A stretch of 64,000 bases of DNA, taken from the NCBI GenBank assembly GCA_944380515.1, contig CALWHT010000016.1, positions 62,001-126,000 of the forward strand, written 5' to 3'. This document shows positions 59,096-63,835 of the stretch, in pieces. The DNA comes from an uncultured Roseburia sp. (lineage in GTDB: Bacteria > Bacillota > Clostridia > Lachnospirales > Lachnospiraceae). The notes under the pieces were generated by a model. It was not told where the DNA came from and did not search any database. It saw nothing but the letters and a program-made list of their open reading frames with translations. Numbering within the stretch: the first letter of the stretch is position 1; the number at the start of each line of letters is the position of its first letter. A program made the position numbers and the translations under genes.

Positions 59096-61243
59096 ATGGA
59101 CATCATTGCAAAAATATCGGAGGAGCTTGGAATCCGCAAAAACCAGGCGGAGGCAGCGGTAAAGCTGATTGACGAGGGAAATACCATTCCGTTTATCGCC
59201 CGCTACCGCAAGGAGGCGACGGGCGCGTTAAGCGACGAGATCCTCCGTAATTTATACGAAAGGCTTAACTATTTAAGGAATCTTGAAGAACGCAAGGAAA
59301 CGGTGCTTTCCGGGATAGAGGAACAGGGAAAACTCACGGAAGAGCTGCGGGAGCAGATTCTTGCCGCGGAGACCATGGTGGCGGTTGAGGATTTATACCG
59401 TCCGTACAAGCCGAAGCGCCGTACCCGCGCGACGATTGCAAAAGAGAAGGGCTTGGAGCCCCTTGCCGACATGATTTCCCTTCAGATGTTAAAGACGCCC
59501 CTAACGGAGGAGGCGGAAAAGTTCGTTGATGAGGAGAAAGAAATACATACGGCGGAGGAAGCGATTGCGGGCGCGAAGGACATTCTTGCGGAGCGTATCT
59601 CGGATGAAGCGGATTACAGGAGCCGTATCCGCGATATGACGGTAAAAAAGGGACGCATCGTTTCCACAGCGAAGGATCCCGAAGCCGAATCCGTATATGA
59701 GATGTATTACGCATTCGACGAGCCGGTGGCAAAGCTTGCGGGACACCGTATTCTGGCTTTAAACCGCGGCGAAAAGGAAAAGTTTTTGAGCGTAAAGGTC
59801 GAGGCTCCCATCGAGGATATCCTGCGTTATCTGGAAAAGAATATCATCGTCAGAGACAACCGGGAGACCGCGCCGGTATTACAGGAAGTGATCGCGGACG
59901 CTTATGACAGGCTGATTGCTCCCGCCATCGAGCGGGAAATCCGAAGCGAACTGACCGAGCGCGCGGAGGACGGGGCAATCCGGGTATTCGGCAAAAACTT
60001 AGAGCAGCTTCTGATGCAGCCTCCGATTGCCGGACAGGTCGTGCTCGGCTGGGATCCTGCATTCCGCACCGGCTGCAAGCTTGCGGTTGTGGATGCCACG
60101 GGAAAGGTACTGGACACTACCGTTATTTATCCGACGGCACCGCAGAATAAGGTGGAGGAAGCGAAGGCTGTTTTAAAGAAGCTGATTTCCAAATACCATA
60201 TTACACTGATTTCGCTCGGGAACGGCACGGCCTCCCGGGAATCGGAGCGGGTAATTGTGGATTTGTTAAAGGAACTTCCGGTCAGGGTTTCCTATGTTAT
60301 TGTAAATGAAGCGGGGGCCTCCGTTTATTCCGCAAGCAAGCTGGCAACCGAGGAATTTCCGAATTTTGACGTGGGACAGCGGAGCGCCGCGTCCATGGCA
60401 AGAAGGCTTCAGGATCCGCTCGCGGAGCTGGTAAAAATCGATCCGAAGTCGATTGGTGTCGGGCAGTACCAGCATGACATGAACCAGAAAAAATTGAGCG
60501 AGGCGCTTGGCGGTGTTGTGGAGGATTGCGTCAACCGTGTCGGGGTGGACTTAAATACTGCGTCGGCGTCCCTGCTTGAGTATGTTTCCGGCATCAGCAA
60601 AACGCTTGCTAAGAATATCGTAGCCTACCGGGAGGAAAACGGGCGGTTCGAAGCGCGGGGGCAGCTTCTTAAGGTGGCGAAGCTCGGGCCGAAAGCGTTC
60701 GAACAGTGCGCCGGATTTCTGCGCATCACGGAGGGAAAAAATCCGCTCGACGCTACCGGGGTTCATCCGGAAAGCTATCAGGCGGCGGAAAAACTGCTGG
60801 AGCGTCTTGGGTATACGCCGGAGGATGTCAGAGAGCGCAGGCTTGACGGGATTTCCAAAAAGATTTCGGACAGTAAAAAGCTGGCGGAGGAGCTTGGCGT
60901 CGGCGAAATGACCCTGCAGGACATCGTAAAGGAGCTGGAAAAGCCGGCGCGGGATCCGCGGGAGGATATGCCAAAGCCGATACTGCGAAGCGACGTGCTG
61001 GAATTAAAGGATTTAAAACCGGGCATGATATTGAAGGGCACGGTCCGCAATGTCATCGATTTTGGGGCGTTTGTCGACATCGGCGTCCATCAGGACGGCC
61101 TGGTGCATATTTCGCAGATGAGCGAGCGGTTTATCAGGCATCCGCTGGAGGCAGTCAGCGTGGGGGACATCGTGGAGGTCAAGGTGCTGGATGTAGATTT
61201 AAAAAAACAGCGGATAGCCCTCACTATGAAACTGAATGGTTGA
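59096..61243 (+). CDS. tex: Tex family RNA-binding transcription accessory protein
   Basis: 715 residues, standard length. The layout is an N-terminal HtH region (MDIIAKISEELGIRKNQAEA), a YqgF/RNase H-like domain (VVLGWDPAFRTGCKLAVVDA at about 318-337), a helix-hairpin-helix module (NIVAYREENGRFEARGQLL), and a C-terminal S1 domain (GMILKGTVRNVIDFGAFVDI). It binds nucleic acid and may act in transcription or RNA turnover. An AGGGGATT site precedes the ATG. The 3' end overlaps the promoter of the next transcript (TTGACA at 61239). Confidence 0.95.
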   Translation: MDIIAKISEELGIRKNQAEAAVKLIDEGNTIPFIARYRKEATGALSDEILRNLYERLNYLRNLEERKETVLSGIEEQGKLTEELREQILAAETMVAVEDLYRPYKPKRRTRATIAKEKGLEPLADMISLQMLKTPLTEEAEKFVDEEKEIHTAEEAIAGAKDILAERISDEADYRSRIRDMTVKKGRIVSTAKDPEAESVYEMYYAFDEPVAKLAGHRILALNRGEKEKFLSVKVEAPIEDILRYLEKNIIVRDNRETAPVLQEVIADAYDRLIAPAIEREIRSELTERAEDGAIRVFGKNLEQLLMQPPIAGQVVLGWDPAFRTGCKLAVVDATGKVLDTTVIYPTAPQNKVEEAKAVLKKLISKYHITLISLGNGTASRESERVIVDLLKELPVRVSYVIVNEAGASVYSASKLATEEFPNFDVGQRSAASMARRLQDPLAELVKIDPKSIGVGQYQHDMNQKKLSEALGGVVEDCVNRVGVDLNTASASLLEYVSGISKTLAKNIVAYREENGRFEARGQLLKVAKLGPKAFEQCAGFLRITEGKNPLDATGVHPESYQAAEKLLERLGYTPEDVRERRLDGISKKISDSKKLAEELGVGEMTLQDIVKELEKPARDPREDMPKPILRSDVLELKDLKPGMILKGTVRNVIDFGAFVDIGVHQDGLVHISQMSERFIRHPLEAVSVGDIVEVKVLDVDLKKQRIALTMKLNG

Positions 61244-61268
61244 CAGAACACCGGGCTTATGTTAGCAT
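61239..61268 (+). promoter_or_regulatory. promoter of the leader ORF and CorC-type gene
   Basis: TTGACA (61239-61244), 18-base spacer, TAGCAT (61263-61268, preceded by TATGT). It places the start of RNA just ahead of the short leader ORF. The same TATGTTAGCAT string is part of the thiolase promoter at 39254-39264. Confidence 0.5.
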
Positions 61269-61307
61269 ACGCATATCAGAGAAAAGAAAAGGAGTGTGAT
61301 TACATAC

Positions 61308-61370
61308 ATGGACGACAGTGACGATAACGATACGGATTATCGAAGTTTTATTCTCCATGTGGTATTATGA
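61308..61370 (+). CDS. 20-residue very acidic leader peptide
   Basis: ATG at 61308, GGAG at 61291-61294 (spacing 13, somewhat long). The first ten residues are MDDSDDNDTD, with six Asp, then a hydrophobic YRSFILHVVL end. A run of Asp directly after the start is the type of sequence known to destabilise translating ribosomes when Mg2+ is low, the mechanism described for MgtL of E. coli, which also starts with acidic and Pro residues. The next gene is a CNNM/CorC-type transporter. The ORF ends 7 bases before a 10-bp hairpin. No database match was tested. Confidence 0.5.
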   Translation: MDDSDDNDTDYRSFILHVVL

Positions 61371-61377
61371 ATAGATA

Positions 61378-61449
61378 AAGCATAGCCTGTGTTCCGGCGG
61401 GATGGTGAAGTTTTTGTAATCACTGCCCTGGGGAATATGGGCTATGCTT
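61378..61449 (+). promoter_or_regulatory. leader hairpin with competing pairing
   Basis: AAGCATAGCC (61378-61387) pairs perfectly with GGCTATGCTT (61440-61449). Inside it, TGTAATCAC (61415-61423) is the exact complement of GTGATTACA (61296-61304), which lies between the leader ribosome site and its ATG. GTGA (61405-61408) can pair locally with TCAC (61420-61423) instead. Another local hairpin, GTGCTT/AAGCAC, lies at 61465-61483. No clear T-run terminator follows, so control may be translational or Rho-dependent. Confidence 0.5.
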
Positions 61450-61526
61450 GTTTCGGTTTAAAGGGTGCTTTGTAAATAAGCACAGAAGATTCAGATACTG
61501 CAGAAGTTTTATTTTGGAGGAGAACA

Positions 61527-62844: not shown

Positions 62845-62874
62845 GAAATAGGAAACAGAAAAAATGAATAAGGA

Positions 62875-63068
62875 ATTCTTCGGGGCAGGGTGATGCAGCA
62901 GGAGCCGCAGTAGCGGCAATGTGCAGATTCCCGACCGACGGTGATTCGAAGCCCGGGATACCGTGCGCGGAAGCGCAGAACGGGGCATTCGAGAGTCCGT
63001 GACCTGCAAAAGCAGCTGAGCCGGTGAGAATCCGGTACCGACAGTATAGTCTGGATGGGAGAAGATAA
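62875..63068 (+). ncRNA. FMN riboswitch aptamer
   Basis: The conserved blocks are all present in order: TCTTCGGGGCAGGG (start), TTCCCGACCGACGGT, AGTCCGTGACC, GCCGGTGAGAATCCGGTACC, GACAGTATAGTCTGGATGGG and closing GAGAAGAT, which pairs with the first block. Length is about 194 bases, longer than most because the arm between ACGGT and AGTCCG (62942-62994) is expanded. It binds flavin mononucleotide and should reduce ribU expression when FMN is high. Confidence 0.95.
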
Positions 63069-63120
63069 GCATGTGAAGTGTAAGACGCCGGAGGCGGCTT
63101 CGCTTTCATTGGAATGACAA

Positions 63121-63150
63121 CCCCGGATGATGTGACATCCGGGGATTTTT
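63121..63150 (+). terminator. riboswitch expression-platform terminator
   Basis: CCCCGGATG (63121-63129) pairs with CATCCGGGG (63136-63144), then ATTTTTG. It is placed between the FMN aptamer and ribU, as for transcription-attenuating FMN riboswitches. Confidence 0.85.
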
Positions 63151-63208
63151 GCGTTCGGCACGCTTAATATCCCTCGAATTCCTCAGAAAAGAAAAGGAGA
63201 CGAGTAAA

Positions 63209-63835
63209 ATGGATACGGCAAACAAAGCAATGACAGGTAAAAAAACGGGTAAAGCGGTGAATGTACGCTATCTGACGGTGACGGCGATGCTCTCGGCGGT
63301 CGCCTACATCTTAATGTTTCTCGATTTTTCAGTTCCGTTTATGCCATCTTTTATCAAAATGGATTTATCGGAGCTCCCGGCGTTAATCGGTTCTTTCGCG
63401 ATGGGACCGCTGTGCGGAGTGATTGTCTGCCTCATCAAAAACATTCTTCATTTGTTTATTACTTCCACAGGAGGTGTCGGAGAACTCTCCAACTTCATCC
63501 TCGGCGTAGCGTTCGTGCTTCCGGCGGGACTTATTTACAAGCGCAGAAAGTCCAGGAAAACCGCACTGCTCGGTTCCCTGCTTGGAGCGGTATTTATGGG
63601 AATATTCAGTATCGTGTCAAATTACTGGCTGGTTTATCCGGTTTATTACAATTTCATGCCAGAGGAGACCGTGCTTGCGGCGTATCAGGCTATCCTGCCG
63701 TCCATGAAGAGCATCTTACAGTGTCTGGTGTGCTTTAATATGCCGTTTACGGTCATTAAGGGCTTATTTTCCGTCGTGATTACATTTCTTACTTATAAGC
63801 ATATCTCGCCGATTTTAAAGGGAGCGGAGCGATAG
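63209..63835 (+). CDS. ribU: riboflavin ECF transporter S component RibU
   Basis: 208 residues with about six membrane segments. The RibU pattern is clear: VRYLTVTAMLSAVAYILMFL (helix 1), MPSFIKMDLSELPALIGSFA with the conserved FLK(L/M)D(L)S.(L/I)P-type segment at about 52-65, and GPLCGVIVCLIKNILHL. It captures riboflavin outside the membrane for the shared ECF module. The FMN riboswitch upstream supports the substrate. The start ATG 63209 follows AAAGGAGACGAG; the open frame upstream crosses the terminator. Confidence 0.95.
   Translation: MDTANKAMTGKKTGKAVNVRYLTVTAMLSAVAYILMFLDFSVPFMPSFIKMDLSELPALIGSFAMGPLCGVIVCLIKNILHLFITSTGGVGELSNFILGVAFVLPAGLIYKRRKSRKTALLGSLLGAVFMGIFSIVSNYWLVYPVYYNFMPEETVLAAYQAILPSMKSILQCLVCFNMPFTVIKGLFSVVITFLTYKHISPILKGAER

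Follow-up and report, generated by a model that had tools for sequence, protein, structure and literature searches.

What controls the gene for a CNNM-CBS-CorC protein in an uncultured Roseburia sp., and does the short acidic open reading frame (ORF) in front of it take part? The gene lies downstream of tex in a stretch of 64,000 nucleotides (nt) of DNA (assembly GCA_944380515.1, contig CALWHT010000016.1, positions 62,001 to 126,000 of the forward strand), hereafter called the window. A first-pass annotation, made from the sequence alone, had described a promoter at the end of tex, a 20-residue ORF with acidic first ten residues, a hairpin behind its stop codon and a DUF21-CBS-CorC gene, and had proposed that the ORF serves as an Mg2+ sensor by ribosome destabilisation. 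The comparative analysis below leads us to consider it likely that this region is a leader-peptide attenuator, which would read Mg2+ via ribosome stability and control an Mg2+ exporter.

Acidic leaders recur upstream of CNNM genes

Relatives of the CNNM gene were picked by the protein alone, and the DNA upstream of them was then read for short ORFs. Each ORF needed a Shine-Dalgarno (SD) site, and the leader score was defined as (D+E) minus (K+R) in residues 2-10. We examined 87 of 88 loci (designated by L numbers) and kept 66 after removal of 21 near-identical or window-species loci, and 195 other genes from the same loci served as controls. An acidic SD-led ORF with a score of at least 3 was found at 32 of the 66 CNNM loci, as opposed to 8 of the 195 control genes (Fisher test, 1.4e-15), and the corresponding counts at a score of at least 4 were 21/66 and 2/195. 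The acidic ORF in front of CNNM genes exceeds chance, and the annotated coordinates of the 20-residue ORF in the window proved right. Acidic short ORFs before CNNM genes were recurrent in Lachnospiraceae and other Clostridia, with examples such as MDDGDSNPENPPLYQK..., MEDSDSNTDHPALYHR..., MDGDPDTCSCKYRNS... and METDPDSSPACPYINA.

In 38 distinct leaders, D and E accounted for 43% of residues 2-10 in frame 0, whereas the other two frames had 2% and 0.6%; at each of residues 12-20, their share was 0-5%. Since the leaders had been chosen for acidity in residues 2-10, the informative part of this result is the comparison with the other frames and the fall that begins at residue 12. The pN/pS ratio over 17 near-relative pairs was 0.27 in codons 2-11 and 0.43 after them; without the Blautia pairs (15 pairs), the values were 0.34 and 0.44, respectively.

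The genome of the window contains three CNNM genes. The second (L196, G000:C8, minus strand) is preceded by an acidic leader of 57 residues, MPDSEDGDTSPCHSQKG..., which by eye runs through a terminator-like hairpin; the match of this leader to the covariance model R1 described below was weak (24.8 bits, E 0.02). The third (L199, G000:C54, minus strand) is itself acidic at its start, MEDGGSPT.... Three of 23 CNNM genes that lack an acidic leader upstream likewise had clearly acidic starts, namely MDDSDTNS (L010), MDDGGSP (L016) and MDDGVSP (L017). Aborted translation at an acidic start inside the CNNM gene could only lower its expression, and such starts therefore agree with the polarity that we propose below for the leaders.

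Two further loci had CNNM genes 52% and 47% identical to that of the window, L064 (on a contig labelled Treponema) and L083 (Spirochaetaceae), respectively, and no acidic leader was found upstream of either; transfer or a binning error is possible for these genes. At L105, a typical acidic leader and a terminator-like hairpin were followed by an apparently truncated CNNM gene, with a match over 58 residues.

The terminator is conserved and sits at the leader end

The annotated 10-bp hairpin starts 7 nt past the leader stop, and its arms indeed pair at 10 of 10 positions. The stem is longer still, reaching 18 bp, with a folding energy of -39.8 kcal/mol (z -5.9 versus dinucleotide shuffles). For comparison across relatives, we used alignment A2 of 27 leaders, from which three Blautia-type rows were left out, their terminators being misregistered in alignment A1, along with two other rows, L038 and L049. 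L073, L013, L014, L082, L096 and other leaders lay outside the model, and L084 was inside it though its leader (MISGDLDVP...) scores below 2. A2 exhibited a helix of 11 pairs followed by the consensus CTTTTTGCG, and 95.6% of the cells were paired. The covariation score (0.53), the number of paired cells and the number of cells changed on both sides were each matched by 0 of 500 shuffles. Seven of the 11 pairs were changed on both sides, a value reached by 34 of 500 shuffles, and slid versions of the helix gave 27-50% pairing. The window hairpin is, judged from this alignment, homologous to a covarying intrinsic terminator.

The wider set comprised 98 leaders with distinct starts, 38 found via the CNNM protein and 60 via the model. 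A terminator by the strict definition was present in 83 of the 98 leaders, as opposed to 5 of 196 random places, although the model-found leaders carry it partly by choice; among those found via the CNNM protein the count was 29/38. The window copy was classed as a terminator by the same definition despite its weak U tract. Furthermore, a promoter-like site lay within 130 nt upstream in 84 of the 98 leaders, compared to 50 of 490 random stretches.

The position of the hairpin relative to the leader was also conserved. For this count we used a lax criterion, a hairpin of -10 kcal/mol or lower, which 94 leaders and 80 of 196 random places reached. The 5' arm started no later than 9 nt past the leader stop in 93 of the 94 leaders; it started within the ORF (stop codon counted) in 68, and the ORF covered the entire hairpin in 21. 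Two layouts could be distinguished. In the first, seen in the window, Blautia and Enterocloster, the leader stops just short of the arm. In the second, the leader has ~28 codons and ends in ...GHSLxLRE, and its last codons are the 5' arm. In both layouts, a ribosome at the stop codon would occupy the foot of the terminator stem, beside the U tract.

Similar leaders precede other ion-transport genes

Whole genomes were searched with model R1, a covariance model built from 27 CNNM leaders only. Besides the window, it matched 57 places with a score of at least 38 bits, 54 of which were leaders by the acidity criterion, with 50 distinct peptides. The genes after the 57 matches were 32 CNNM genes of the window's clade, 8 CNNM genes of a second clade, 9 P-type cation ATPases, 2 UppP genes (BacA family) and 4 other genes, and 2 matches lay at contig ends. 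The four other genes encode an ABC ATPase (L160), two AI-2E-type proteins (L169, with a weakly acidic leader, and L171) and the beta subunit of a Na+-transporting decarboxylase (L173). L175, which is the same place as L133, and L100, which is the window, were left out of these counts. In four matches (L099, L101, L104 and L127) the leader peptide was identical to a training leader. One match of 40 bits (L229), in the same phylum, had MEDSDSSDGDRS... upstream of a CNNM gene. Among the weaker matches, no gene was recognised in 13/19 at 25-31 bits and in 6/21 at 31-38 bits.

An acidic leader with a terminator-like hairpin preceded a P-type cation ATPase at L103, L118, L123, L128, L133, L134, L166, L168 and L192, the last of which was a weak match (28.5 bits). 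The same arrangement was found before UppP at L120 and L121, and the ORF at L120 spanned the entire hairpin. Genome G131 had separate R1 matches before UppP, a P-type ATPase, an AI-2E-type gene (with a weakly acidic leader) and CNNM. In addition, L214 (22.3 bits) and L221 (23.9 bits), which both scored below the threshold, have acidic ORFs upstream of transporter-like genes that, going by their sequence, we take to be TrkH/KtrB-like potassium transporters.

The leader region of the window

The features of the region are collected in Table 1. The CNNM, CBS and CorC_HlyC domains of the downstream gene all scored over the Pfam cut-off, which bears out the annotated gene type, and its product is likely an Mg2+ exporter. 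Acidic codons near the start of a short ORF and an Mg2+ transport-type gene downstream (the latter by its Pfam domains), as in leaders of the MgtL kind, were thus both found here. The promoter annotated at the end of tex is present as a TTGACA/TAGCAT site overlapping the tex stop codon (the tex ORF ends at 61243), but taken alone it is at chance level, with 1 site found and 0.9 expected from shuffles. A counterpart of the four-codon ORF that overlaps the leader stop, ATGAATACATAA, was seen in Blautia leaders. This ORF could possibly take a re-initiating ribosome deeper into the hairpin arm.

Table 1. Coordinates of features in and around the leader, numbered from the first letter of the window
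Feature	Position	Strand	Basis or remark
Promoter-like site: -35 TTGACA (61240-61245), 17 nt, -10 TAGCAT (61263-61268), extended TG (TG-T-TAGCAT)	61240..61268	+	
Extended SD region of the leader, AAGGAGTGTGA	61289..61299	+	Read in sequence; similar extended SD in many relatives
Start-codon helix, 5' arm, TACATGGA	61305..61312	+	8 pairs with 61354-61361
Leader ORF, 20 codons, ATG at 61308, TGA at 61368-61370, MDDSDDNDTDYRSFILHVVL	61308..61370	+	Homologous leaders elsewhere
Acidic stretch, leader codons 2-10, 6 Asp	61311..61337	+	Proposed ribosome-destabilising element
Start-codon helix, 3' arm, TCCATGTG	61354..61361	+	Pairs with 61305-61312
Four-codon ORF, ATG AAT AGA TAA, overlapping the leader stop (ATGA)	61367..61378	+	Read in sequence
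Terminator-like hairpin, stem base AAGCATAGCC (61378-61387) with GGCTATGCTT (61440-61449)	61378..61449	+	Folding; aligns with the covarying terminator helix of relatives
U-rich tract after the hairpin, TTGTTTCGGTTT	61448..61459	+	Weaker than TTTTTG of many relatives
SD site of the CNNM gene, GGAGGAG	61516..61522	+	Read in sequence
CNNM-CBS-CorC gene, 426 aa	61527..62807	+	Pfam PF01595, PF00571, PF03471

The nearest relative found was L073, also from an uncultured Roseburia, whose region is 94% identical to that of the window. From the SD site to the 5' arm of the hairpin, the two differ by two bases, both inside the leader, and the L073 leader stays acidic despite the resulting changes N7T and D10A. 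The outer stem of the hairpin is kept and its loop is changed (TGTCATCAC in L073). The check proposed with the first-pass annotation, conservation and covariation across relatives, was borne out in that acidic ORFs recur and the hairpin covaries. It failed for a long-range pairing of the leader start (61296-61304, GTGATTACA) with the hairpin loop (61415-61423): the two segments are exact complements in the window (9/9), but because the loop is changed in L073, the sole close relative, the pairing is not supported and we dropped it.

A helix between the start region and the leader end, here called the start-codon helix, was found in 17 of the 98 distinct leaders at p ≤ 0.05. Two-sided changes preserved the pairing in L026 (GTG start, GCGTGGAA with TTTCACGC) and L033, and one-sided changes occurred in L106 and L117. 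Over the whole set, however, the arms of a leader did not pair better with each other than cross-paired arms did (p 0.11). We rejected the helix as a general feature and regard it as one of a sub-lineage. In the window, it does not overlap the terminator.

A known Rfam riboswitch or leader family was rejected, as the covariance models gave no match at gathering score to the leader in the window or at ten further loci, and only two chance-like matches up to E 10 at the window leader. A repeat or mobile element was likewise rejected, as the region is single in its own genome (E ≤ 0.001). A DNA search of the region in 60 genomes gave one full-length match outside its own genome (G006, 94%), which we take to be the same relative as L073, and the rest were short (22-32 nt). 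Further downstream, an FMN riboswitch (RF00050, 79.7 bits) was found at 62872-63070, upstream of an ECF transporter gene at 63149-63835 (PF12822), which is probably RibU.

Proposed mechanism and its alternatives

Transcription would start just upstream of the leader, and a ribosome starting on the leader would encounter the acidic run in codons 2-10. With sufficient Mg2+, this ribosome would reach the stop codon, which lies where the terminator hairpin begins, and prevent pairing at the base of the 5' arm, beside the U-rich tract, and RNA polymerase would continue into the CNNM gene (ON). With scarce Mg2+, the acidic nascent chain would destabilise the ribosome, leading to drop-off, formation of the terminator and shut-off of the exporter (OFF). 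The direction of the switch rests on the homology of the hairpin to an intrinsic terminator: the gene should be on when the leader is translated to its end and off after drop-off. ON at high Mg2+ suits an exporter, and this predicted output is opposite to that of MgtL. What we infer is that ribosomes drop off, that Mg2+ is the signal, that the switch has this polarity and that this CNNM protein exports Mg2+.

Taken across genomes, we lean slightly towards a wider reading, in which these leaders form a cis-acting family of Clostridia that wires fall-off on an acidic run to an intrinsic terminator. Success of translation would report high Mg2+, or a cation balance that stabilises ribosomes, and would switch on ion-transport genes: CNNM of two clades together with P-type ATPases, joined in some genomes by UppP, AI-2E-type and Na+-pump genes and perhaps by TrkH-like ones. 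Some leaderless CNNM genes would carry the acidic run at their own start instead.

Several observations weigh against the attenuator. No leader with a score of at least 3 was found at 34 of the 66 CNNM loci, and the score was below 2 at 25 of them; 9 of the 38 CNNM-selected leaders lacked the strict terminator, and three of the 57 strong R1 matches (L113, L157 and L169) had no clearly acidic leader. R1 matches in genomes were few: within the family, at least 64 of 397 genomes gave one, within the class at least 31 of 391 (both at E ≤ 0.01) and within the phylum at least 2 of 299 (E ≤ 0.001), these counts including the window's own genome and being lower bounds, with 8-10 candidates scored per genome. 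In the window itself, the U-rich tract is weak (TTGTTTCG), and since the hairpin begins 7 nt past the stop codon, a ribosome that terminates there would reach no further than the base of the hairpin. The leader differs from that of L073 by 0 synonymous and 2 non-synonymous changes, with one Asp lost, which counts against the peptide being strictly conserved. A conserved antiterminator was sought by eye only and none was convincing; the ribosome itself may serve in its place. Finally, coupling of transcription and translation may be poor in some Firmicutes, with the polymerase outrunning ribosomes in B. subtilis; if it does so in the present bacteria, the mechanism would require a polymerase pause.

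The leader might instead gauge ribosome stability or ionic balance in general, responding to K+, polyamines or the supply of ABC-F or EF-P rather than to Mg2+. The range of targets would fit such a gauge, as it includes P-type cation ATPases, UppP, AI-2E-type proteins and the Na+-pump beta subunit, together with the presumed TrkH/KtrB-like protein of two weak matches, a name given by reading only. However, of the 55 targets identified with a score of at least 38 bits, 40 were CNNM genes of two clades, though with a model trained on CNNM leaders, and we consider a gauge of this kind unlikely.

The opposite polarity is improbable as well. As in MgtL, drop-off would free the leader RNA for an antiterminator, and low Mg2+ would mean ON; this output is known for MgtL (PMC11282234), and the start-codon helix in a subset of the leaders could be read in the same sense. 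On the other hand, the 5' arm of the terminator lies at or inside the leader end in all but one of the leaders with a hairpin, where a finishing ribosome would disturb the terminator. A conserved antiterminator was not found by eye, the start-codon helix of the window is clear of the terminator, and induction of an exporter at low Mg2+ would hardly be sensible.

An amino-acid attenuator sensing aspartate supply, suggested by an Asp-rich leader ahead of a terminator, is very improbable. Asp and Glu interchange in the homologues, alongside Ser, Gly, Asn and Pro, and the commonest targets are ion transporters. Furthermore, with the acidic run early and the terminator late, stalling would favour termination, which is wrong for a starvation response. 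We likewise give hardly any weight to a functional small protein with the hairpin as an unrelated processing or terminator element, since, although pN/pS is below 1, the length (15-58 residues) and the sequence past codon 11 vary widely and the place where the ORF ends goes with that of the hairpin.

Comparison with known systems

The proposed attenuator resembles in part several known leaders. In pyrBI (pyrL), the terminator overlaps the leader end and is disrupted when a ribosome follows the polymerase closely, and the gate is polymerase pausing at low UTP, whereas the gate proposed for the clostridial leader is ribosome survival. The M-box riboswitch also exerts cis-acting Mg2+ control on transport genes in Firmicutes, but by a structured aptamer, and the clostridial leader has no Rfam match.

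Acidic N-terminal codons destabilise translating ribosomes (PMC11282234, PMC8092293), and drop-off on MgtL at low Mg2+ increases expression of the importer (PMC11282234). MgtL, the leader of enterobacterial mgtA, shares with the clostridial leader a short ORF, acidic N-terminal codons and an Mg2+ transport gene downstream, with drop-off reported there and expected here. It differs in being Rho-dependent, whereas an intrinsic terminator is present in most of the leaders here; the target here is exporter-type, the predicted output is opposite and the hosts are Clostridia. For the upstream ORF MgtQ of Salmonella mgtC-mgtB, too, acidic codons have been proposed to make ribosomes unstable and to bring about a switch of the RNA structure (PMC8092293). 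Alternative stem-loops there affect the ribosome-binding site of an importer gene, and the available part of that paper mentions no terminator.

On the export side, high Mg2+ induces corC and mgpA in Salmonella, and PMC12421838 cites the N-terminus of CorC as one that destabilises ribosomes. CorC (YbeX) of E. coli and Salmonella is thus similar to the present case in its CorC domain, link to Mg2+ export, induction at high Mg2+ and destabilising gene start, and some of the CNNM genes here also start acidic. It differs in that neither a leader peptide nor a terminator of corC is mentioned in the available part of that paper. In S. aureus, the main factor in Mg2+ export is MpfA, a distant relative of CNNM, and PMC6711546 leaves open whether it is an exporter or a regulator.

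Among the matches listed from the open-licence PubMed Central (PMC) literature, which included the enterobacterial cases, no title or start of an abstract placed an acidic leader in front of CNNM or any other gene of Firmicutes. By the terms checked, PMC2965389 does not mention these genes, and in the portion of PMC13009471 available, the magnesium passages concern buffers and mpfA does not occur. The regulation of bacterial Mg2+ export is little understood, and the known Mg2+ leader peptides in the literature found, as far as its accessible text goes, act on importers. Compared to that literature, the sensing principle is known, and what appears to be new is its wiring to a terminator, the reversal of the output, the choice of exporters as targets and the leader family itself. 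If the reading is true, these leaders are a widespread gauge that exploits the ribosome's own dependence on Mg2+ with an output reversed relative to MgtL, and their many natural variants would allow tests, in Gram-positive bacteria, of the rules by which acidic nascent chains destabilise ribosomes.

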